From a virus, in IMG/VR virus record IMGVR_UViG_3300028831_000180, positions 1-29,134 of that record: a stretch of DNA of 29,134 nucleotides; one strand, given 5' to 3'. A model generated the notes under the pieces. That model searched no databases. It saw only the letters and a program-made list of their open reading frames with translations, and was not told the origin of the DNA. Shown piece by piece: positions 1-8,438 of the stretch. Made by a program: the position numbers and the translations under genes. The first letter of the stretch is position 1; every line of letters starts with the position of its first letter.

Positions 1-975
1 GAAGTAGTGGAGGACTTATTGAGACAGTGTGAAGAATGTCAAACTCTCTCGCGGAGAGTGTAACATGGATGTTTCATGTCCGATTTGATACGCATTCCAA
101 AAATATCCCAGCATGTGGAATTGTACTTTCATACGGAAATCGAAATGTCTTTTTTGTGTCGCACAAATTGGGTAACAGTTACTTCTACTCGTCCGAGTAT
201 GTGTCCAGGGTCGGAAATTTTAGTCTGTAGTAGTAGTAGAAGGTCTTACTAAAGTGGATATGTCATCGAAGGTGGTCAAATTGATGTGTATGAATTGATT
301 TTCCTCCGATGTATTTTTCATTGGGGATCTTCTATTTCTGGGTGGTTATTTCTGGATATGTCGTGTTATTTTGGAGATGGTTGTCAGTTATCGTTGACAA
401 ACCGATTTTGATCTTACGTTTTGTCGGAATTAAAACAATTCCTTGAAATGCTAAATTGGTGAAAGATTTCACCAAGTGTAGTGTTACTACCTATCGTCAA
501 CCTGGGTTGACCGATGCATTACGGCGATTCCGGGATAAATACTGTCAGACAAACCAGGTCAGTGTCCAGTTTGTCCGGCGATTCTATACCCCATGGGGGT
601 ACAATGGCGTGTCGAGATCAAGTTTTCACTTTGTTAGGACATACGCTCCCTGTTTTCCTCCGTGTCTTAAATGTCCGATGTGCTAGATCCGTCCCGATCT
701 GGCCCGATGTGTGTGTTTTTGTCACCCCTCCGATGTCTCCCTATCCTGATCTTGGAAACCCTCCCCGATCTTGCCTCTGTGGATCATGAGGAGGATGCCC
801 GCGCGAGATCCGTCCCATTTTGGGGCGATGTATGTGTGTCTGTCTGAGTTTTGGTGTTCCCGAATGTTGGGACGAATGTCCAGAACAAGATATTGGGTCC
901 TATTTGCCAGTACATGGTTGACTACTTAGCGTTATAATGGTATATATTGGACATGTACTCAATGTCCGATTTTTA
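1..975. other. gene-free left end
   Basis: I see no supported gene here. The plus-strand open frames (from 36, 456 and 514) lack a ribosome binding site at a sensible distance and have no recognisable family. On the minus strand the two Shine-Dalgarno-like sites (near 310 and 655) lead to no start codon or to ATG-TCC-TAA. The stretch holds a degenerate tandem pair of leftward promoter-like repeats (684-722 and 806-844) and copies of TGTCCG. It lies beyond the terminator of the left operon, so anything transcribed from it would continue past the left edge of the window. Confidence 0.6.
684..844 (-). repeat. degenerate direct repeat with leftward promoter-like motif
   Basis: Two 39-base copies, 684-722 and 806-844, share AGATCCGTCCC, then TGG, then GATGT-TGTG and TTGTC/CTGTC. 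Read leftward, the 806-844 copy contains CATACATCGCC followed about 10 bases later by CGGATCTCGCG. The same arrangement recurs before the gene that starts at 7434. Promoter function is inferred; no good -35 hexamer is visible. Confidence 0.35.
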
Positions 976-980
976 GGCAA

Positions 981-1016
981 CAAAAAAGGCGCAACGGACA
1001 TTACGCCCGTGCGCCT
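981..1016 (-). terminator. Rho-independent terminator of the left operon
   Basis: Read leftward, AGGCGCA (1016-1010) and CGG pair with CCG and TGCGCCT (993-987), with one bulged base, followed directly by a run of six T. It lies about 60 bases after the stop of the last leftward gene (1076), as expected for the operon end. The loop contains a copy of the TGTCCG word. Confidence 0.8.
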
Positions 1017-1075
1017 GATTTGTTGGGATTGTTGGAATCATTCCCGTTTGTCGAAATGATGGCTGTTTGTGGTAA

Positions 1076-1177
1076 TTAGTCCTCTTCGAGGATTATGATT
1101 GTTATGTCCGAATTGAGGGTAATGTCCCATGCCAGAAATGCGAGGAGCATGAGCTTTCCTGGTGATAAATGCCTCAT
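1076..1177 (-). CDS. small hydrophobic peptide, 33 aa
   Basis: A short frame begins MRHLSPGKLMLLAFLAW and ends in an acidic IILEED tail. It starts 12 bases after the stop of the gene at 1190 and is preceded by AGGAC about 10 bases upstream. The middle is hydrophobic enough for one weak membrane segment. It is the last frame before the terminator at 981-1016. No family is recognised. The start is supported by spacing and operon position rather than by a strong ribosome binding site, so it could be chance. Confidence 0.45.
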   Translation of the reverse strand: MRHLSPGKLMLLAFLAWDITLNSDITIIILEED

Positions 1178-1189
1178 GTCTTGGATGTC

Positions 1190-1399
1190 CTATTTGTTGA
1201 GTTCTTGGATTCGATGAACTTTGTCCATGATGCGGTCTAAGGCAGTATTGTCCCTTCTGCTTGCTTCGAGCAGTATGTAGATGATGTCCGGTTCTTGCAA
1301 TTCGACGTCATCTATGGTAGCTAGGACCTTTATGTCCGATTCGCGGAGATCCTTGTCAAATACGATGTTGTACGTATCTTTCCATGAAATATCAGCCAT
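1190..1399 (-). CDS. hypothetical protein, 69 aa
   Basis: The protein is small, mostly helical and mixed-charge. It has an acidic middle (DDVELQEPDI) and a basic C-terminal helix (RIMDKVHRIQELNK). No domain is recognised. The ATG follows the stop of the upstream gene (1403) by three bases; the GGGAAAATAGGAC before it serves as the binding site and is part of the upstream gene's last codons, so the two are probably translationally coupled. Function unknown; a soluble early phage protein is likely. Confidence 0.7.
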   Translation of the reverse strand: MADISWKDTYNIVFDKDLRESDIKVLATIDDVELQEPDIIYILLEASRRDNTALDRIMDKVHRIQELNK

Positions 1400-1402
1400 G
1401 TC

Positions 1403-1609
1403 CTATTTTCCCATCAATTCGTAGGTTGAGATGGGATTGTGACATTCAGGACATGTGCCAGAGAAGTCTTTCCCGTTCCACAAACAGGTGATTTGTGCCT
1501 TGTTATTCGTTTCCGGGCAGACTACGGTATATGACAGTCCTTGTCCGGACATGGGTGGACCGCTTAGTTTGATGTGCTTTGCCTTGTTAGTCCGATTTAG
1601 TGCGTCCAT
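1403..1609 (-). CDS. hypothetical zinc-ribbon-like protein
   Basis: The protein is about 68 aa. Four cysteines are spaced as VVCPETNNKAQITC and, further on, GTCPECHNP. The final C-x2-C-H is typical of a small treble-clef or zinc-ribbon fold, so metal binding is likely, with a role in nucleic acid or protein contact only guessed. I place the start at the ATG at 1609, which overlaps the end of the small upstream gene (stop at 1597-1599). A TTG at 1621 is an in-frame alternative that would add MGPT. The downstream gene begins three bases after the stop. Confidence 0.65.
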   Translation of the reverse strand: MDALNRTNKAKHIKLSGPPMSGQGLSYTVVCPETNNKAQITCLWNGKDFSGTCPECHNPISTYELMGK

Positions 1610-1761
1610 GGTCGGCCCCAATTGATCTTGATGTCTCGTGTCCTAAATGCCGGATCGTTGCAGTGTTTACCTTTACGGCACTGTTCATACTGTTTGTTTA
1701 CTTTTTGTTGGTCCTTCCTATTTGCCCAGAATTTCACCTTATTACGGTGGAATGGGCACAT
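1597..1761 (-). CDS. small basic Cys/His protein, 54 aa
   Basis: The frame begins MCPFHRNKVKFWANRKDQQK, carries EQCRKGKHC near residues 26-34 and ends GRPWTH. Cys2, His5, Cys28, His33 and Cys34 could hold one metal ion. The protein is strongly basic, which suggests nucleic acid contact. The ribosome binding site is strong (AAAAGGAG, about 11 bases before the ATG) and resembles the leaders of the other leftward genes. Its last codons overlap the start of the next gene (1609), implying coupled translation. No family is recognised. Confidence 0.65.
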   Translation of the reverse strand: MCPFHRNKVKFWANRKDQQKVNKQYEQCRKGKHCNDPAFRTRDIKINWGRPWTH

Positions 1762-1804
1762 TTTCGATGTTTCTCCTTTTGTTTGGTTTGCCTAGAACGT
1801 CTAG

Positions 1805-1846
1805 ACATGGGAGGAATTGGGTATTTAACCCAATTCCAACCAAATC
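1805..1846 (-). repeat. inverted-repeat element, copy 1
   Basis: GGAATTGGGT (1813-1822) and ACCCAATTCC (1828-1837) form a perfect 10-bp stem with a 5-base loop. The flanks ACATGGGAGG (1805-1814) and CCAACCAAATC (1836-1846) are identical to those of a second copy at 5091-5153, while the stems differ by compensating changes. It begins at the stop codon of the glutamine amidotransferase gene. There is no T-tract on either strand, so it is not a standard intrinsic terminator; RNA processing, 3'-end protection or protein binding are possible. Confidence 0.6.
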
Positions 1847-2877
1847 TAGAGGTTTGTGTTGTTATTGGTTAGATTGTGGTCATTTTCGCATTCTTCCACG
1901 TTGTCCGTTTTGTTCCCTTCAAGAGCCTTGTTGATCATGGCTTCAAGATCTTCGTCCGAAATGTTCAAATTGACGGGAATGCCCGAATCGTCCACTAAAT
2001 CGCCCCCCTCTGTGGACCCATGATCAACAGAGTATCCTAGGATGTTAGTTTCACCCTTTTCGGCGTCTTCCCACCATTTGACGTATCTGTCCGAATCGTC
2101 GTCTTTGATGAGACTAGTGGGAATGTAGCAAATGCACGAATCTCCGTCCATGTCGCAATCATTGCACATTCCGCAGAATGAGCAGAAGTGACTATATTTC
2201 TTTACTGTCCCATATGACAGACAATGATTGCACCTGGCGTATTCGGCCAGGCTTGAGTACTGTGTGCCTGTACCCCAGCCATTAGGCTGGATTGAGTAGA
2301 TTCGTGATGTCCACCCCTCATATGCGTCGTTGGAGTACCAAATCCCGTTATCCCAGATTCCCATGTTTTCGTTCAGAATGATTGAATTGAATGGATACTT
2401 GGGATCTACCGTCAGAATTACCGCTTTGTTGAATTTGCCCATCCAAGACTCTAATGCGCGCCTTTGCCTTTTTGTGGTGAATTGTAGGTGTTGGCGCTGT
2501 GTGAGGAAATCCTCTGCAAGAATCCTGGTATCTGACCTATGGTCGTTCTTTCCGGGTTGTACGCTTTTTGGGAAAATTCCGTTGTGTCCGATTACTGTGC
2601 GATTGTCCCCATTTACCGGAAATGGGTGGCAATTGCTGGTATCGATCGTTCCGCCCGTTGAGAGGCGGGAATGGAACAATGCCGGACCTTCGGGAAATGC
2701 CTTCCTAGTGGCGACAAAGTTGGATACCGCAGCATCTAGGTCAAGAGTCTTGGATACGATGATTGACCCGTTTGCGACGATTGCCCAACCGTGTCCGTCA
2801 TCGTTGAATGTTCCACCATTGCGCAAGTGCTGTGCGTTTGGTAGGACATTTTCTGGAAAGTAGGTTAGGAGACACAT
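1846..2877 (-). CDS. class II glutamine amidotransferase
   Basis: The protein (343 aa) is an Ntn-hydrolase glutaminase that should release ammonia from glutamine for a partner enzyme. Cys2 (MCLLTYF) becomes the N-terminal nucleophile after Met removal. Class II hallmarks follow: HSRLSTGG (69-76), CHPFPV (83-88), GHNGIF (97-102) and SDTRIL (115-120). The glutaminase part ends near residue 200. A cysteine cluster (about 216-250, with CNHC, CSFC and CNDC) looks like a zinc ribbon, and the rest is an acidic tail. There is no synthetase domain in the protein. The amidoligase gene ends nine bases upstream, so that enzyme is the obvious ammonia acceptor. The start ATG has only a weak binding site and may rely on coupling. 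In the family such stand-alone GATases pair with ATP-grasp-like ligases. Confidence 0.88.
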   Translation of the reverse strand: MCLLTYFPENVLPNAQHLRNGGTFNDDGHGWAIVANGSIIVSKTLDLDAAVSNFVATRKAFPEGPALFHSRLSTGGTIDTSNCHPFPVNGDNRTVIGHNGIFPKSVQPGKNDHRSDTRILAEDFLTQRQHLQFTTKRQRRALESWMGKFNKAVILTVDPKYPFNSIILNENMGIWDNGIWYSNDAYEGWTSRIYSIQPNGWGTGTQYSSLAEYARCNHCLSYGTVKKYSHFCSFCGMCNDCDMDGDSCICYIPTSLIKDDDSDRYVKWWEDAEKGETNILGYSVDHGSTEGGDLVDDSGIPVNLNISDEDLEAMINKALEGNKTDNVEECENDHNLTNNNTNL

Positions 2878-2886
2878 TGTTGTCGT

Positions 2887-4134
2887 TTACACCCTTTCGA
2901 TTAGCTTGTCCGATTCGGACGTTAGCGGGAGGTACAAGCCATTTTGGTCTTTTGCCCAAGTTATGAACGAAGGCCAGGACCATCCCTTTTTGTTCAGAAT
3001 GTCCGAAGTTGTCAGTTGGCGGGTGTATTCAACCGATGCGTCTGTTAGTCCTAAAGCAGCCTTTACTTCCGTTTCGTCAAGGCTTGCCTTGAATACCCTA
3101 ACTTCTAGGGTATTGTCGTTTTGTGTGTTGATTGCCTGGTAACGTCCCTCTGATGACTTTCGTCCCTTTGCCAGTCGTTTGGCGTTCATTCGGTCATTTG
3201 AGCTGAAATTTGCCCATTGAGAATTTCCACGCCTGGCGATTGACTTCACATACCGCTCATTTCGGTAGAAAAACTTTAGCCACCGATATAGGTGCATTTC
3301 TCCACTAAATGCGGTACGTGAGACATGTACGTGCAAACCATACCCACTGTTGACGTAACAACCCAATTCGGACAATTCCGGAAGTAGCTTCCATGGAAAT
3401 TCCGACATGGCGTATTCGTACGACATAGGATGGGTAACCATTTCAAATCCGGCAATTGACCCATCCTCCTTCAAATAGCCCAAACTTCCCAACTCGGACA
3501 AAGCTACCTTAGCCGTTTTTGTGTATGTTCCGTAATCGGACGAAACACCAATTTCTAGCTCTTGTCCGAGGAAAACGGGACCATTGCCGTGAAAGATCGG
3601 ATCTGGCTTATAGTTCCAATACTGGACAAGCGATCCATTCGTGGCGTTTCTTCGGCAATAGGTACAACTACACCCGGGAGTGACGGAAGTGCACGGAGTT
3701 GGACAATACGTACAATTGGTGTCGTTTCGGTAGCTTTCTCCGCAACCTTCACATTCGTATGAATTGTCCGAAATGCAATCGTTGCAAACGTAGCCATTTG
3801 CCCAACCTTGGTAGTTGAGCGAATAATTGGATTGATAGCCGCAAAGCCGGCATGTTCGCGATACTGCCCTATCTCGGGCAAGTTCTCGCCTATTGGCGTT
3901 TCTAGTACATGCGAAGCAATCACAGCCAATTGGCATTTGTGATGACAAACGCTCACTAAGACTGTTAATTAGTTCGTTGTAGTTGTAAATGCTCGGACCG
4001 GGTGATTCGGACTCTTCCGATTCTTCTGACTCTTCTGACTCTTCCGGTTCCCCTGATTCATACCAATCGGTTGGTTCGGGTGGTTCGTCCGCATATAGGA
4101 GGTCATCCTCCCACATGTCCGTGTTTGGCACCAT
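2887..4134 (-). CDS. ATP-grasp-like amidoligase with zinc-finger N-terminus
   Basis: The protein (415 aa) is a predicted COOH-NH2 ligase that uses ATP to make an amide bond. Its N-terminus (1-48) is acidic and low-complexity (EES repeats). A cysteine-rich region follows (71-160, at least six Cys pairs such as CRLC, CNDC, CEGC, CTYC), probably several zinc fingers. The catalytic domain begins near 180: GQELEIG (190-196), EDGSIAGFEMVTHP (223-236), GLHVHVS (266-272) and the R...N...LEVRVFK block (331-349) match the amidoligase family pattern. The start is supported by AAAAAGGAGC just upstream. The glutamine amidotransferase follows at once and should feed it ammonia. The substrate is unknown: side chains of proteins, peptides or the cell wall are all possible. 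Confidence 0.85.
   Translation of the reverse strand: MVPNTDMWEDDLLYADEPPEPTDWYESGEPEESEESEESEESESPGPSIYNYNELINSLSERLSSQMPIGCDCFACTRNANRRELARDRAVSRTCRLCGYQSNYSLNYQGWANGYVCNDCISDNSYECEGCGESYRNDTNCTYCPTPCTSVTPGCSCTYCRRNATNGSLVQYWNYKPDPIFHGNGPVFLGQELEIGVSSDYGTYTKTAKVALSELGSLGYLKEDGSIAGFEMVTHPMSYEYAMSEFPWKLLPELSELGCYVNSGYGLHVHVSRTAFSGEMHLYRWLKFFYRNERYVKSIARRGNSQWANFSSNDRMNAKRLAKGRKSSEGRYQAINTQNDNTLEVRVFKASLDETEVKAALGLTDASVEYTRQLTTSDILNKKGWSWPSFITWAKDQNGLYLPLTSESDKLIERV
4010..4045 (-). repeat. four tandem 9-base units encoding Glu-Glu-Ser
   Basis: Four near-identical 9-mers (GACTCTTCC or GATTCTTCT type on the plus strand) lie at 4010-4018, 4019-4027, 4028-4036 and 4037-4045. They encode the acidic EES repeat near residue 35 of the amidoligase. 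Such in-frame repeats change in copy number easily, so this segment is probably a flexible spacer or tail. Confidence 0.85.
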
Positions 4135-4227
4135 TTGCTCCTTTTTGAGTTTTTGGTAGCTTTATGGTTTTTGGGTTAGATAACCCGAAACGAGCACATC
4201 TAGGGCGATGTGCCCGAATCTAGCTAG

Positions 4228-4353
4228 CTAAGACCAATACTTCTTTTCTTTCCTATCTCGTAGTCTAAAATACGTATGTGTCAGGGTATGTGTTGCTAAC
4301 CACGCAAACAACCCTATTGCGATGTATGTTAAGGTTGCGCCCAATCTTCCCAC
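4228..4353 (-). CDS. small membrane protein, 41 aa
   Basis: A short GTG-started frame reads MGRLGATLTYIAIGLFAWLA, then a basic tail RLRDRKEKKYWS. Residues 5-27 form one membrane segment with a positively charged cytoplasmic end. GAGAGGAAA lies directly before the GTG; the spacing is short, so the in-frame TTG three codons later is an alternative. A promoter-like CATACATCGCC copy is immediately upstream (4368-4378). A further copy of most of this motif lies inside the gene and encodes T-Y-I-A. No family is recognised. Confidence 0.5.
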   Translation of the reverse strand: MGRLGATLTYIAIGLFAWLATHTLTHTYFRLRDRKEKKYWS

Positions 4354-4361
4354 TTTCCTCT

Positions 4362-4378
4362 CTTATGGGCGATGTATG
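4362..4378 (-). promoter_or_regulatory. promoter-like CATACATCGCC element
   Basis: Read leftward: CATACATCGCCCATAAGA. It is one of a family (also at 7474-7493, 4400-4417 and 806-844) consisting of CATACATCGCC followed by CATA or TATAAT. It lies 15 bases before the small membrane gene that starts at 4353. Function is inferred from repetition and position. Confidence 0.35.
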
Positions 4379-4399
4379 CCTATGCGCGTAGGAAGAACC

Positions 4400-4417
4400 A
4401 TTATGGGGCGATGTATG
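4400..4417 (-). promoter_or_regulatory. promoter-like CATACATCGCC element
   Basis: Read leftward: CATACATCGCCCCATAAT, where CATAAT can serve as a -10 box. GGACAT lies about 17 bases upstream of it in the -35 place. It would drive the small membrane gene (4353) and the amidoligase operon (4134). Inferred. Confidence 0.4.
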
Positions 4418-4450
4418 CTCCTATGTCCGCTTTCTTGGGACATGCGGAAA

Positions 4451-4470
4451 GGGTGACATTTCTGCCACCC
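4451..4470 (-). terminator. hairpin with GAAA tetraloop, terminator-like
   Basis: Read leftward, GGGTGGCA (4470-4463), GAAA, TGTCACCC (4458-4451) form an 8-bp stem with one G-U pair and a stable GNRA loop. Only a short TTT follows. It lies 33 bases after the stop of the gene at 4503 and before the promoter-like elements of the next unit, which fits partial termination or 3'-end protection. Confidence 0.5.
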
Positions 4471-4502
4471 TATCCGGTTCATGGGGAATTGTGTGAATTC
4501 AG

Positions 4503-4712
4503 TTAGCTATTCCTGATTACGTGTATTGCTAGCTTCTTGCGCCAATTTGGCCATTTTAGGTGATTTACCTCCATGATGCCTATGTAGTGCAGATTGGGGT
4601 ATTTGCGCGCCCAATTACGAATGCGCACCATGCTTTGCATTAGGGTAAATGTCCACCCTAATACCTCTATTGAGGTAAGTATGGCTATGAAGTAGATTGC
4701 GAAAGTTATCAC
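4503..4712 (-). CDS. small membrane protein, 69 aa
   Basis: An N-terminal membrane segment (ITFAIYFIAILTSIEVLGWTF, residues 2-22) is followed by a basic soluble part rich in Arg, Lys and Trp (VRIRNWARKYPN, LKWPNWRKKL). It probably sits in the host membrane with the basic part inside. Start: GTG at 4712 overlapping the upstream stop as GTGA, with GGGACAAGG just before. The same junction sequence (GGGACARGGCGTGA) occurs at the start of the upstream gene. No family recognised. Confidence 0.7.
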   Translation of the reverse strand: MITFAIYFIAILTSIEVLGWTFTLMQSMVRIRNWARKYPNLHYIGIMEVNHLKWPNWRKKLAIHVIRNS

Positions 4713-4894
4713 GCCTTGTCCCGGTTTTCCAGGTATGTCTTGATTTCGACCAGTTGGCGCTCGATGCGCAGCATGTCCGCTTTGAGCGTATTCACTTCAT
4801 TCTCCAGTGTTTGTACCCTTTCGTCCAGATATGCTAGCATTGCCCGATTTACTGCTTTCTTTTCCGATTCAGTCCAGAAGTCAGGATCTGTCAC
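4709..4894 (-). CDS. small coiled-coil protein, 61 aa
   Basis: The protein opens with TDPDFWTESEKKAVNRAML, then a heptad-rich helix (RVQTLENEVNTLKADMLRIE and on, about residues 26-56) typical of a parallel coiled coil. I place the start at the GTG at 4894, which overlaps the upstream stop (GTGA) and follows GGGACAGG. An ATG at 4906 (MGQG...) is possible but lies inside the upstream gene with no binding site. Possible oligomerising adaptor; no function known. Confidence 0.7.
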   Translation of the reverse strand: MTDPDFWTESEKKAVNRAMLAYLDERVQTLENEVNTLKADMLRIERQLVEIKTYLENRDKA

Positions 4895-5052
4895 GCCCTG
4901 TCCCATCCGGTGTAAGTGTCCGAGATGTTCGTGTTGTCCGATTCGGGCTCATCGAGCACATCGGCCCACGTGTCCGATTCGTCGTACCAGTCCGAGTGAT
5001 CCGTGTTGTCCATGATCTGGGTGGATACGACGGCGTTTGTCTGCTCGGGCAT
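4891..5052 (-). CDS. small acidic protein, 53 aa
   Basis: The sequence begins MPEQTNAVVSTQIMDNTDHS and is very acidic in the middle (DWYDESDTWADVLDEPESDN), ending TGWDRA. No fold is predicted by eye; it looks disordered. The start is fixed by AAAAAGGAGCGAATC before the ATG at 5052; a longer frame to 5094 lacks such a site. The segment SDWYDESD resembles TDWYESGE in the acidic N-terminus of the amidoligase, so it may share a binding partner with, or be acted on by, that enzyme. That link is a guess. Confidence 0.7.
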   Translation of the reverse strand: MPEQTNAVVSTQIMDNTDHSDWYDESDTWADVLDEPESDNTNISDTYTGWDRA

Positions 5053-5090
5053 GATTCGCTCCTTTTTAGTAGGTTGTCCGTTACACGCGG

Positions 5091-5153
5091 ACATGGGAGG
5101 ATTCGGGGTATTGATTGTTTTATATTATGTCTTGCCCCGAATCCAACCAAATC
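5091..5153 (-). repeat. inverted-repeat element, copy 2
   Basis: GGATTCGGGG (5099-5108) pairs with CCCCGAATCC (5135-5144) across a 26-base loop. The flanks ACATGGGAGG and CCAACCAAATC are the same as in the copy at 1805-1846. It follows the stop codon of the gene at 5161 by a few bases, as copy 1 follows the amidotransferase stop. The stem changes between copies (AATTGGG to ATTCGGG) are compensated, which points to selection on the paired structure. Confidence 0.6.
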
Positions 5154-5160
5154 AGCGTGT

Positions 5161-5541
5161 TTAGCGAGTTTCGTACTTTCGTGCTAGTTGTGCGTCATGG
5201 TGTGCTTGTTCGATGAATGTCCGTTCCGTCCCGTGATCGTGCTTTTCTGCTGAGTTGTCGTGGCTGTGCACTTCGCCCGATTCGTGGCTGTGGAGATGGG
5301 CGATGTGGTTGCCTTCGATCTCTTTTGCCACCTCGATACCGAATTGCATCAGAAGGTTGGCGTATGCCCGCTTCAGCATGAGGTGAGCCTCTTGTACCGT
5401 ATCGAGCGATTCGAAGTCTTCGCGCGCTTTGAGCAATTCTTCGAACATGTCCATATCGCGCTCAATGGTCGATACGTTGTGAGCCATGGCCTGTGCAATG
5501 GTTGACGACTTTTGTCCGGGACGTACTTCCATGATGCACAT
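5161..5541 (-). CDS. His-rich helical protein, 126 aa
   Basis: Residues 1-75 are helical (AMAHNVSTIERDMDMFEELL, then VQEAHLMLKRAYANLLMQFG). Next comes a histidine-rich stretch (about 79-103: HIAHLHSHESGEVHSH and EKHDHG) with at least eight His, then a short charged helix. The His cluster should bind Zn, Ni or Cu ions, as in metal-buffering proteins. No signal peptide or membrane segment. The start is set by AAAAGGAG ten bases before the ATG. No family is recognised. Confidence 0.75.
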   Translation of the reverse strand: MCIMEVRPGQKSSTIAQAMAHNVSTIERDMDMFEELLKAREDFESLDTVQEAHLMLKRAYANLLMQFGIEVAKEIEGNHIAHLHSHESGEVHSHDNSAEKHDHGTERTFIEQAHHDAQLARKYETR

Positions 5542-5595
5542 TTCTGGTTTGCTCCTTTTGTCCGTTTTTCGCTACCTTCTGGCAGCATCGCACCA

Positions 5596-5618
5596 TATAT
5601 CGGGATAGGACCGATATA
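5596..5618 (-). repeat. short inverted repeat between genes
   Basis: TATATCGG (5596-5603) pairs with CCGATATA (5611-5618) across seven bases. It lies in the 154-base gap between the genes at 5541 and 5696, upstream of the former. No T-tract. Operator or RNA hairpin; function unknown. Confidence 0.4.
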
Positions 5619-5695
5619 CAGCACGAAACGGTCAGATGAACGCGAGAAGGAATGTCCCGACAAACAGGATGAGGAACCCCCAACGGGCGTAAGTC

Positions 5696-5893
5696 TCAGA
5701 ACGGGACATGAGTCACCATCCCTACCATTGCCGCGATGTGGTGTGAATTGGTCGAATGCGACACAACCGGCTCAAACATGATGATTGTGGCACCTCCGAT
5801 CAGAACATCACGACCGGCGCGCATTACGCGAATCGCGCAAACCACCATCCTACGGTGCCAGGGGTGCTTTTCCGGCGTTTCGTGCTTTCCCAT
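5696..5893 (-). CDS. small membrane-associated protein, 65 aa
   Basis: A basic, His-containing N-terminus (MGKHETPEKHPWHRR) is followed by hydrophobic stretches (about residues 30-45 and 50-65) with short breaks. One or two weak membrane passes are possible, the N-terminus staying inside. The start is well supported by AAAGGAGCGAAAA just upstream. It follows the large inverted repeat at 5912-5991, which would lie in its 5' untranslated region. No family recognised. Confidence 0.6.
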   Translation of the reverse strand: MGKHETPEKHPWHRRMVVCAIRVMRAGRDVLIGGATIIMFEPVVSHSTNSHHIAAMVGMVTHVPF

Positions 5894-5911
5894 TTTTTCG
5901 CTCCTTTAGGT

Positions 5912-5991
5912 TGAAATAACCAGATTCGGACATAACGCCTTTGTAGCACTATGCGCCATAAGGGTGCTATGTCCGATTACTGGCTATTTCA
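5912..5991 (-). repeat. 80-base imperfect palindrome
   Basis: TGAAATAACCAG (5912-5923) pairs with CTGGCTATTTCA (5980-5991) at 11 of 12 positions, and TCGGACATA (5926-5934) pairs with TATGTCCGA (5968-5976). The interior can form a smaller TAGCAC/GTGCTA stem. It lies between the phosphoribosyltransferase stop and the next gene. Both arms include the CGGACA word. Possible RNA processing signal, attenuator or protein-binding site. Confidence 0.6.
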
Positions 5992-6037
5992 GCAATGAGA
6001 GCTAAGTATCCTATTACGGGCCGGAATACCCGTTTTG

Positions 6038-6490
6038 CTATGCTCGTGTGAACCTTGCACCGCTTCGGACGAGTCGCCCATATTCGTACGTTCCTACGTA
6101 CGTTGTCGGGAAACTCTTGATGTCGTACTGATAGCGGTATTCGTTCCAGGTTCTGATACCTTGCGAAGTAACATCCTCTACGGCGTCTATTACCTTAATG
6201 CGCGTTGAGCCCGTAGAGATAAAATCGTCCACGAATAGCCATTTATGTCCGATTCGCCCGACTATACGGCTATCATCGTGCGGAGTGTACTCTTTGCGCA
6301 CGATTGCCATGTTTACCCCGAAATGCCTGGCCAGTACTGGAATGACCAGAGAGCCGGAAAGGCCCGTACCGACCATTGTGTCGAAGTCGACATGATCTAG
6401 GGCTATCTCGGCATTTGCGATCAATGTGCTTTCTGACCCGAATGCCTCTTCGAAGTAGCTTGCCCCGACTTGCAGGTAATCGTCACTCAT
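6038..6490 (-). CDS. phosphoribosyltransferase-like protein
   Basis: The protein is 150 aa. The PRPP-binding loop is clear: WLFVDDFISTGSTRI (hydrophobic strand, two acids, then a T/S-rich loop), preceded by MVGTGLSGSLVIPVLARHFG and the flexible-loop segment VRKEYTPHDDSRIVG. This is the type I phosphoribosyltransferase fold (family that includes orotate, adenine and hypoxanthine enzymes and PyrR). The base substrate cannot be told. Salvage of nucleotides during phage growth, or a PRPP-sensing role, would fit. The start is set by AAAAGGAGCGAAACGGAC before the ATG at 6490. An in-frame GTG at 6544 would add MSYCGSECSRPPKRSETD, less likely. Confidence 0.78.
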   Translation of the reverse strand: MSDDYLQVGASYFEEAFGSESTLIANAEIALDHVDFDTMVGTGLSGSLVIPVLARHFGVNMAIVRKEYTPHDDSRIVGRIGHKWLFVDDFISTGSTRIKVIDAVEDVTSQGIRTWNEYRYQYDIKSFPTTYVGTYEYGRLVRSGARFTRA

Positions 6491-6686
6491 GTCCGTTTCG
6501 CTCCTTTTAGGTGGACGTGAGCATTCCGACCCACAATAGGACACTTAGCTCCCATTCATCAGAATTGGGGGACAAGTCTTTAATGTCTGAGTTAGAGCCA
6601 CTTGCGTGGAATTACCCAGACATACCCCATTTCTGGTGTAAGTCCCATTCACACTATTGACGTATCAAGACACGTGTTGCGGAGTT
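6491..6686. other. 196-base intergenic stretch
   Basis: Only very short minus-strand frames without a binding site are visible, for example one of 18 codons near 6600-6660. It holds the leader of the phosphoribosyltransferase (AAAAGGAGCGAAACGGAC). No clear promoter or terminator was recognised. Confidence 0.4.
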
Positions 6687-6797
6687 TTACCGGCTGCGAC
6701 TACAGTTATCCACCTTTGCCAGGCTTGAGTAGTCCGTACGATTCTGGCCCAATGTCCGTTTTGCGCGGTATTCGTCTTTTACGTCTTTGATGCGCAT
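6687..6797 (-). CDS. doubtful small basic protein, 36 aa
   Basis: The frame reads MRIKDVKDEYRAKRTLGQNR and ends with NCSRSR. It stays open upstream to a GTG at 6938, which lies inside the repeated TTCGGGTGTATACAT element. Neither start has a convincing ribosome binding site, unlike the other leftward genes. The downstream part is hydrophilic and basic. It fills a gap of the right size in the operon, so it is kept at low confidence; it may be noncoding. Confidence 0.3.
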   Translation of the reverse strand: MRIKDVKDEYRAKRTLGQNRTDYSSLAKVDNCSRSR

Positions 6798-6888
6798 TAC
6801 GGCGGGTTCCGGCGAATCACCCGTTACGTCCGCGATGTGGGGATTTTTGGTATTTGTAATCCCATTTAGGAAAGATTCGGACAAGGTG

Positions 6889-6943
6889 CATGTATACACC
6901 CGAATGTGAGGGTATAGGTGTTTTTTAGATGTATACACCCGAA
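6889..6943 (-). repeat. direct repeat ATGTATACACCCGAA
   Basis: The 15-mer occurs twice about 35 bases apart (near 6891 and 6929), each with the palindromic core GTATAC. Read leftward it is TTCGGGTGTATACAT, which could contain a -10-like TATACAT. It lies just after the stop of the gene at 6960. Candidate operator or promoter pair. Confidence 0.45.
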
Positions 6944-6959
6944 CCTAACCTAAATGGTA

Positions 6960-7151
6960 CTACTTGGTCTCAATGGGCGATTTTGAGCAGTACCAGTGCG
7001 AATCGGAGGAATCGTGCACGCAGTACATAACCGATGTATCGTTCACGAATCGCCCGAATTGGGCATTGTTCCCGCTTACGGCAATTGCGATACCTACGAC
7101 AATTGCCGCAATGAGTACAGATTCCACGACAAGAGAGATGATGGTACGCAT
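6960..7151 (-). CDS. small single-pass membrane protein, 63 aa
   Basis: The N-terminus MRTIISLVVESVLIAAIVVG and the next few residues form one strong membrane segment (about residues 4-26), possibly an uncleaved signal anchor. The outside part (NNAQFGRFVNDTSVMYCVHD and WYCSKSPIETK) holds two cysteines that could form a disulfide. The start is set by AAGGAGCGAAA before the ATG. Such small phage membrane proteins can act in exclusion or lysis control, but nothing identifies its role. Confidence 0.75.
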   Translation of the reverse strand: MRTIISLVVESVLIAAIVVGIAIAVSGNNAQFGRFVNDTSVMYCVHDSSDSHWYCSKSPIETK

Positions 7152-7206
7152 TTTCGCTCCTTATTCAGACATACCCTCTTATGACTCCTTTGTCGTTGAT
7201 GCCCGA

Positions 7207-7434
7207 TTACACCTCTTTGTAGTCGAATGCCCAGATGTTGCATGTCTGGACCGGTTCGTCCAGATCTTCACCGGTTTCCGCGTTTACGGGCTGAAGGCGA
7301 GCTTTGGGGGTGATGTCCGCTTTTCCCAATGCGTCCGCTTTCGTGACTTCGATGTCGTATCCGACGATTTCGAAGGTTACGCCCTTGATTTCGATGTATG
7401 CCCCGATGTTGGGCACATCCACCAGAATCGCCAT
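7207..7434 (-). CDS. hypothetical protein, 75 aa
   Basis: The protein is soluble and mainly beta-strand in pattern (GAYIEIKGVTFEIVGYDIEV, then ARLQPVNAETGE and a C-terminal NIWAFDYKEV). It looks like a small beta-barrel or SH3-like domain, but no family is recognised. The ATG has a clear site (AAGGAGCGGAA). A promoter-like element with TATAAT lies about 40 bases upstream (7474-7493). Confidence 0.72.
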   Translation of the reverse strand: MAILVDVPNIGAYIEIKGVTFEIVGYDIEVTKADALGKADITPKARLQPVNAETGEDLDEPVQTCNIWAFDYKEV

Positions 7435-7473
7435 TTCCGCTCCTTATGTCCGTTTTCGCCCGCGAGATCCGAG

Positions 7474-7493
7474 ATTATATGAGGCGATGTATG
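7474..7493 (-). promoter_or_regulatory. leftward promoter candidate with TATAAT
   Basis: Read leftward: CATACATCGCC, three bases, TATAAT (7479-7474). Transcription would begin near 7467, about 33 bases before the gene at 7434. CGGATCTCGCGGGC follows the -10, as it follows the related copy near 806. No consensus -35 is seen; the conserved CATACATCGCC may take its place as an activator or sigma contact. Confidence 0.5.
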
Positions 7494-7653
7494 AACACAT
7501 GTCATGTCATGTCCGATTTTTCGTACAATTCGGACAAAGGAGCCATAGCAGGGTATGTCCTGACACATCCACTATTTAGGAATTAAGGTACATGTGGCCT
7601 TTATGGCCTATTCCCCGTTTTTCGGTTGTTTCGGGTAATTCGGACATGTCATC

Positions 7654-7875
7654 CTATTTCAGGAACATCCGAATTGCCTGCCAAATCGTCTTTTGTCCGG
7701 TCTTTACGAGATACCGTAAACGACGGATTTGCTGGATTCTTCCGACATATCCGGTATAATACGGATTGTCGTCGTAAATCCTGACTTGTACGTCCTTCCG
7801 GATATTCTCGACATATCCGGGTATTTCAGACATATACCACTTATCCCCTATGTCCGAATTGCTCTTGATCAACAT
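7654..7875 (-). CDS. hypothetical basic protein, 73 aa
   Basis: This is the first gene of the leftward unit. It begins MLIKSNSDIGDKWYMSEIPG, continues with a YxxNIRKDVQVRIYDDNPYY segment and ends in a basic helix (RIQQIRRLRYLVKTGQKTIW). The basic helix and first position suggest a DNA-binding or regulatory protein, but no HTH is evident. The ATG at 7875 is preceded by AGAGGAGGTGATC, the best binding site in the left arm. A GTG at 7887 overlaps that site and is rejected. Confidence 0.72.
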   Translation of the reverse strand: MLIKSNSDIGDKWYMSEIPGYVENIRKDVQVRIYDDNPYYTGYVGRIQQIRRLRYLVKTGQKTIWQAIRMFLK

Positions 7876-7894
7876 CTCCAAGATCACCTCCTCT

Positions 7895-7966
7895 CAAGAT
7901 CGTTGATCTTGGCCCCCGCGCCTAGATCAAGTGTACCAAAATGATCTTGATAGGGCAAGATCATTT
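7895..7966. promoter_or_regulatory. paired GATCTTG inverted repeats (operator candidate)
   Basis: CAAGATC (7895-7901), gtt, GATCTTG (7905-7911) is a perfect palindrome. AAATGATCTTG (7939-7949), six bases, CAAGATCATTT (7956-7966) is a second perfect inverted repeat with the same core. Both lie just upstream of the leftward gene at 7875. The arrangement suits a dimeric repressor controlling that unit. Confidence 0.6.
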
Positions 7967-8059
7967 CACCATCTGTAGGTACGGCGTATACCCTATGTCA
8001 GGTAGTACCTAGATAAAGGGGGTATTTCGGACATGCCCTTTTTGTACGGCGTTCCAGGC

Positions 8060-8162
8060 GTGCTTAGTATTATGGGTACATAGCGCACCATGTGTGCTTA
8101 GTATTCTATATACATAGAATATTAAGTACTTAGTATCATATAGTACATAGTATGCTAAGTAC
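8060..8162. repeat. AT-rich iterons GTRCTTAGTATY
   Basis: Copies begin at 8060, 8094 and 8126 (34 and 32 bases apart, about three helical turns), and an inverted copy ATGCTAAGTAC lies at 8152-8162. Between copies two and three, TATTCTAT (8102-8109) and ATAGAATA (8114-8121) form a perfect palindrome. Same-face phasing suggests cooperative binding by one protein. Confidence 0.65.
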
Positions 8163-8438
8163 ACCTAGCATGCAGGGCATATGTGGGTGAAAGCCGCGTA
8201 CACGACTTGTCGTATAATTCGGACATATAGACTATAAGGGAATAACTATATTAAATCAGACATAGGGTATATGTCGGAAAGCGGCGTGTTCTTCTCACAT
8301 GCATGAACTAATAAAAGTTGATCTTGGGATTTACACATGCGAGTGGTAAACAAAGTTGATCATGTCGACATGTAGACAGGATTGTGTATTACAAAAGATC
8401 TTGATAAGATCCTAGGAAATGAGGAAAGGAGGTGTCGA

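Follow-up and report, generated by a model that had tools for sequence, protein, structure and literature searches.

Phage genes for an amidoligase and a class-II glutamine amidotransferase (GATase) have been annotated side by side for more than a decade, and the prediction attached to them, a change in the host cell wall and superinfection exclusion, has been repeated without experiment; in the literature searched we found no experiment on the function of such pairs. Both enzymes are listed in LUZ24-like phages (PMC3890496, PMC3517423), and a cassette of seven genes proposed to modify peptidoglycan, which include amidoligases, ATP-grasp, GGCT and GATase, has been described, for which a block to superinfection is put forward as a hypothesis (PMC5498523). 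The pair is also reported in OM43 phages, in a study that cites phiEco32 and Marvin and makes the same cell-wall prediction for phage amidoligase cassettes (PMC10580990). Action of these cassettes on peptidoglycan is a hypothesis and not a result in both PMC10580990 and PMC5498523.

The pair considered here lies in a virus record of 29,134 bases, probably a fragment, the whole of which is called the window. Both genes are read from the minus strand: an Amidoligase_2 carboxylate-amine ligase of 415 aa (2887..4134; assigned by Pfam, phrog, predicted fold and alignment) is followed by a class-II (Ntn) GATase of 343 aa (1846..2877; phrog, profile, predicted fold and alignment). The spacing of nine bases (2878..2886) noted in the first-pass annotation is correct and consistent with translational coupling. 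The closest described counterpart, gp105/gp106 of Marvin (cluster S mycobacteriophages), where both products are annotated merely as glutamine amidotransferase domain proteins, matches the window pair in gene order and orientation, is 36.7% and 39.7% identical to it and has the same Cys module in the GATase, but has 79 bases between the genes and an extra C-terminal extension on the ligase. In the OM43 phages MEP401 and MEP402 the ligase also adjoins the GATase (PMC10580990), although identity to the window pair is 26-29%, the ligase N-terminus is longer and the GATase is without the eight-Cys module. The cassettes of RIO-1, phiEco32 and LUZ24-type podoviruses share Amidoligase_2 and class-II GATase (PMC3890496, PMC5498523) but also contain a second COOH-NH2 ligase, an ATP-grasp enzyme and, in many cases, GGCT; none of these was found among the scanned ORFs of our 29-kb, possibly incomplete, fragment.

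Pfam and phrog-type scans identify, in the right part of the window, structural genes read rightward (terminase, Mu-type portal, protease, capsid, tail tube, tape measure and Dit) and, among them, an Amidase_2 endolysin gene. The left 8 kb carry mostly small leftward genes, among them the pair and a phosphoribosyltransferase-like gene (6038-6544, minus strand; phrog_2068, E 4e-23). A terminator-like hairpin followed by a T run (987..1008, minus strand), a consensus match only in a region where such sites are no more numerous than shuffling predicts, is a possible end of the leftward transcript holding the pair. The motif TGTCCGA is found 28 times where 3.7 occurrences are expected; 26 of the 28 lie within window positions 1-8300, where TGTCC is also strand-biased (54 on the plus and 21 on the minus strand); the enrichment extends over coding and non-coding DNA alike and may reflect a candidate binding site or a codon-pair effect. 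Scans of the window for tRNA and Rfam elements and a search for near-identical phage DNA returned nothing. PADLOC models gave no meaningful match, and a reading as an anti-phage defence system was set aside on this ground. By score, capsid and terminase match Arthrobacter phages best; in the ligase tree (SH-aLRT support only) the window falls inside a group of Actinomycetota chromosomal and viral sequences, and WhiB often stands beside the pair in related viral loci. Sequence relationships thus point to a likely actinobacterial host.

Active sites and predicted folds

The ligase scores above the curated cut-off of Amidoligase_2 (PF12224; 28.7 against 22 bits) and matches phrog_22302 with E 1e-47. 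The motifs quoted for it at first pass, GQELEIG (E192, E194), GLHVHVS (H268, H270) and LEVRVF (E344, R346), are all present, and an alignment of 52 proteins leaves E192, E194, H235, H268, H270, R302, N336, E344 and R346 invariant; GxExE, GxHxH and ExRxF are together kept in 171 of 171 normal-length ligases. A Cys-rich N-terminal region (residues ~70-165) precedes the catalytic domain (~170-412); from residue 170 onward most of the AlphaFold2 model exceeds a pLDDT of 90. The top 37 Foldseek matches of this model are all glutamine synthetase (GS), YbdK-type, Dop, PafA or GMAS structures, with modest TM-scores (0.24-0.34 by query length). Because its matches are YbdK, GS and the Pup ligase and depupylase folds, the modelled ligase is of glutamine-synthetase fold; an ATP-grasp fold is not supported, and the 'ATP-grasp-like' label first given to the enzyme is wrong. 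The single ligase sequence found no match in a sequence search of the PDB, and a ligase profile search returned Cys-rich proteins, mostly LIM domains. What had been described as an acidic EES tail is a run near the N-terminus (about residues 29-44), absent from relatives; the protein has no such tail.

The GATase matches phrog_25883 (E 7e-62) and stays below the Pfam cut-offs of GATase_6 (18.2 against 27 bits) and GATase_4 (13.6 against 23 bits). Its active-site motifs are Cys2, HSRLSTGG (R71, T74), CHPFPV (H84), HNG (98-100) and SDT (115-117). Across 48 aligned proteins C2, H69, R71, T74, H84, H98, N99, G100 and D116 are invariant, a set that takes in the M1-C2 start with the catalytic Cys beside the initiator Met, the glutamine-binding R71 and D116 and the oxyanion-hole N99-G100; C216, C219, C235 and C238 are equally unchanged. 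Loss of catalytic residues in an alignment, named in the first-pass annotation as evidence that would tell against it, was looked for in the 52 ligases and 48 GATases and not seen. Six GATases of relatives fail a simple motif pattern: five have CDT for SDT or a misplaced start, and the sixth (L043) is cut short by the contig end.

The catalytic domain of the GATase (~1-185) is followed by an eight-Cys module (~216-250), probably a zinc module, and a low-confidence C-terminal extension. The earlier description of added Cys-rich modules in both proteins survives for the ligase, whose N-terminal Cys region is widely conserved and nearly universal among relatives; the GATase module is not general, being conserved in viral and actinobacterial pairs and missing from Bacillota pairs. 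A scheme of paired Cys modules in both partners was rejected, the one being nearly universal and the other lineage-specific (Spearman 0.19).

The AlphaFold2 model of the GATase is confident over the catalytic domain and best matches the GlmS glutaminase domain in Foldseek (1xff, E 4e-9), followed by EgtC (5e-6) and PurF. EgtC, itself a class-II Ntn enzyme, takes off gamma-glutamyl groups and does not supply ammonia, and this leads to the most serious rival explanation, a cycle like that of EgtA/EgtC in which a gamma-glutamyl group placed on an amine by the ligase is later taken off again by the GATase-like Ntn hydrolase, with no ammonia transfer. The resemblance of the ligase fold to gamma-glutamyl ligases such as YbdK fits such a cycle, as does phage C75C1, whose GATase (L004:6001-6897), ~0.85 kb downstream of the ligase, is fused to a gamma-glutamyl cyclotransferase (GGACT) domain; a protein of MW202828 aligns with this fusion over most of its length and probably has the same architecture. 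GlmS is nevertheless the better fold match, and a profile built from GATase relatives reaches the GlmS glutaminase (E 1e-7, over the R71/T74, H84 and N99-G100 motifs) and lists GlmS and PurF chains with no EgtC at E up to 0.1. In ergothioneine synthesis, moreover, intermediate steps lie between EgtA and EgtC. We consider the gamma-glutamyl cycle unlikely, and by its model the GATase would be a GlmS-type glutaminase with an Ntn hydrolase fold. Glutamine-dependent amide formation is the probable chemistry of the pair.

Linkage and inheritance of the pair

Of 89 loci on viral contigs, 86 have the GATase immediately downstream of the ligase, with gaps of -34 to +62 bases in the directly adjacent relatives, and a GATase is present in all 30 viral ligase clusters defined at 60% identity. 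The same holds more widely, since of 53 Bacillota/Ignavibacteriota loci that have sufficient flanking sequence, 52 show a GATase within 2 kb of the ligase (the exception is L160). Neighbourhoods that never conserve the pair, the other finding that had been named in advance as adverse, are therefore not what relatives display. Among isolate phages the pair occurs in Marvin, MEP402, a Manatee Spring podovirus and an Acinetobacter phage; in C. difficile phage AR1086-1, as seen at the ligase locus only, RlaP and not a GATase follows the ligase. An apparent ligase-GATase fusion in L093 was rejected, the ORF having no GATase Met-Cys start and the ligase N-terminus lying in another frame, and looks like a sequence error.

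GATases of this kind were found in 34 of 98 Nocardia species, and the Nocardia loci sampled (L098, L099, L104, L105, L110 and L114) carry two or three ligase-GATase pairs in tandem. Copies inside one locus are only 41-65% identical. When the genes of 14 tandem pairs were matched across species, the ligase and the GATase of 13 pairs both found their closest counterparts in the equivalent tandem position; the remaining pair, a third copy, matches second-position pairs. Ligase and GATase have thus been duplicated and kept as matched units, each ligase keeping its own GATase, as would be expected of a holoenzyme that has a dedicated glutaminase. The proposal that the ligase is served by its own glutaminase is well supported, as the active sites are complete, the genes are strictly adjacent in different phyla and duplication involves matched units; of the first-pass reading as an amide-modification pair with the GATase supplying ammonia, this core stands and the ATP-grasp label does not.

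The pair is also found on two mycobacterial plasmids of 154 kb and 156 kb (L177 and L178), where the GATase is annotated as glucosamine 6-phosphate synthetase, and on actinobacterial chromosomes, as well as in element-like loci that also hold T2SSE/T2SSF or relaxase-type genes. Since chromosomal and plasmid copies exist in actinobacteria, the function of the pair is, on this distribution, not phage-specific. A separate observation concerns Pseudonocardia, where giant ORFs between 4,181 and at least 7,218 aa long (L113, L116, L117, L118, L119 and L120) contain amidoligase domains of the same subfamily, two of them in L118, without a nearby GATase.

Proposed activity and candidate targets

The gene pair, its families, intact active sites, predicted folds, strict linkage and co-inheritance as matched units are directly established. 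Our reading of them, to which we give a probability of roughly 0.5, is a two-subunit glutamine-dependent amide synthetase whose likeliest target is a host peptidoglycan carboxylate, the wall being altered during infection. The GATase would hydrolyse glutamine with Cys2 as nucleophile, and the ammonia released would be handed to the GS-fold amidoligase, which would use ATP to phosphorylate a carboxylate and turn it into a primary amide. The likeliest substrate would be a free carboxylate of peptidoglycan precursors or stem peptides (D-Glu or diaminopimelate, in an actinobacterial host), and the altered wall might, for example, exclude competing phages or tune the phage's own lysis.

The choice of target draws on a gene linked to the pair in related actinophages, a sister group of the window in which WhiB is syntenic too. 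A small transglycosylase-like protein with a hydrophobic N-terminus (phrog_12661, E 1e-16) is encoded near the pair in 40 related viral loci, belonging to 14 of the 30 ligase clusters (60% identity); its gene lies upstream of the ligase in 9 loci, at 19-188 bases, and downstream in the other 31. When the search was run outward from this protein, all 69 loci that extend far enough upstream, among the best 80 of a longer match list, contained the pair; the nine loci in that set with the gene and without the pair have ~1 kb of upstream sequence or less. The gene is absent from the window and from its nearest ligase relatives (L008, L015, L018 and L019). By analogy, its linkage to the pair in these actinophages favours peptidoglycan over an open list of targets, and host peptidoglycan as the target, taken by itself, is a tentative assignment to which we would give somewhat less than even odds.

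Two other kinds of target deserve mention. Amidation of host or phage proteins at Asp, Glu or C-terminal carboxylates, as a means of countering host defence or redirecting the host's machinery, would suit a ligase fold common to Pup ligase and depupylase, Cys-rich modules that could bind macromolecules, and the presence of the pair on plasmids and in the element-like loci mentioned above. No conserved candidate target gene is linked to the pair, however, and the neighbour family whose strong linkage was tested is the transglycosylase, so that we hold a protein target to be improbable, much as the gamma-glutamyl cycle is. Synthesis of an amidated small metabolite, as an auxiliary function in secondary or nitrogen metabolism, has been proposed for Marvin and other phages (PMC10580990; PMC10945688), and the diverged Nocardia tandem copies could serve several substrates; against it, no other biosynthetic genes were recognised in the window or among the identified neighbour families of viral relatives, and we rate it lower still. 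Decay or chance resemblance with no enzymatic function, for which the sub-threshold Pfam scores of the GATase might be quoted, is hardly credible against catalytic residues conserved across phyla, strict adjacency and confidently predicted catalytic-domain folds.

Comparison with known amidation systems

Should peptidoglycan be the target of the amide synthetase proposed here, phages would carry wall-amidation enzymes of their own, a matter relevant to the timing of lysis, to superinfection and to endolysin sensitivity. The range of hypotheses is narrowed by the strict inheritance of the pair as a unit and by its linkage to a transglycosylase-like gene, and a tractable relative is available: Marvin gp105/gp106 in M. 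smegmatis.

In Gram-positive bacteria, MurT/GatD and AsnB/LtsA likewise amidate peptidoglycan in a glutamine-dependent manner with a ligase and a glutaminase. AsnB/LtsA also uses a class-II GATase; to our knowledge GatD is not class II, and the ligase folds of both systems differ from that of the GS-fold ligase. Glutamine-dependent amidation by the ligase and glutaminase of MurT/GatD is described in PMC3267633. We speculate, as a doubtful extension of the reading above, that a GS-fold ligase with a class-II glutaminase may form a mobile two-gene peptidoglycan amidation enzyme and thus a third route beside these two, carried on actinobacterial phages, plasmids and chromosomes and accompanied in some phage lineages by a co-encoded membrane-anchored or secreted transglycosylase, with which it would remodel the host wall early in infection. 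The pair has been described in phages before and belongs to a known but uncharacterised kind of enzyme system, to which our analysis adds its behaviour as a strict unit, the predicted GS fold of the ligase and the transglycosylase linkage.
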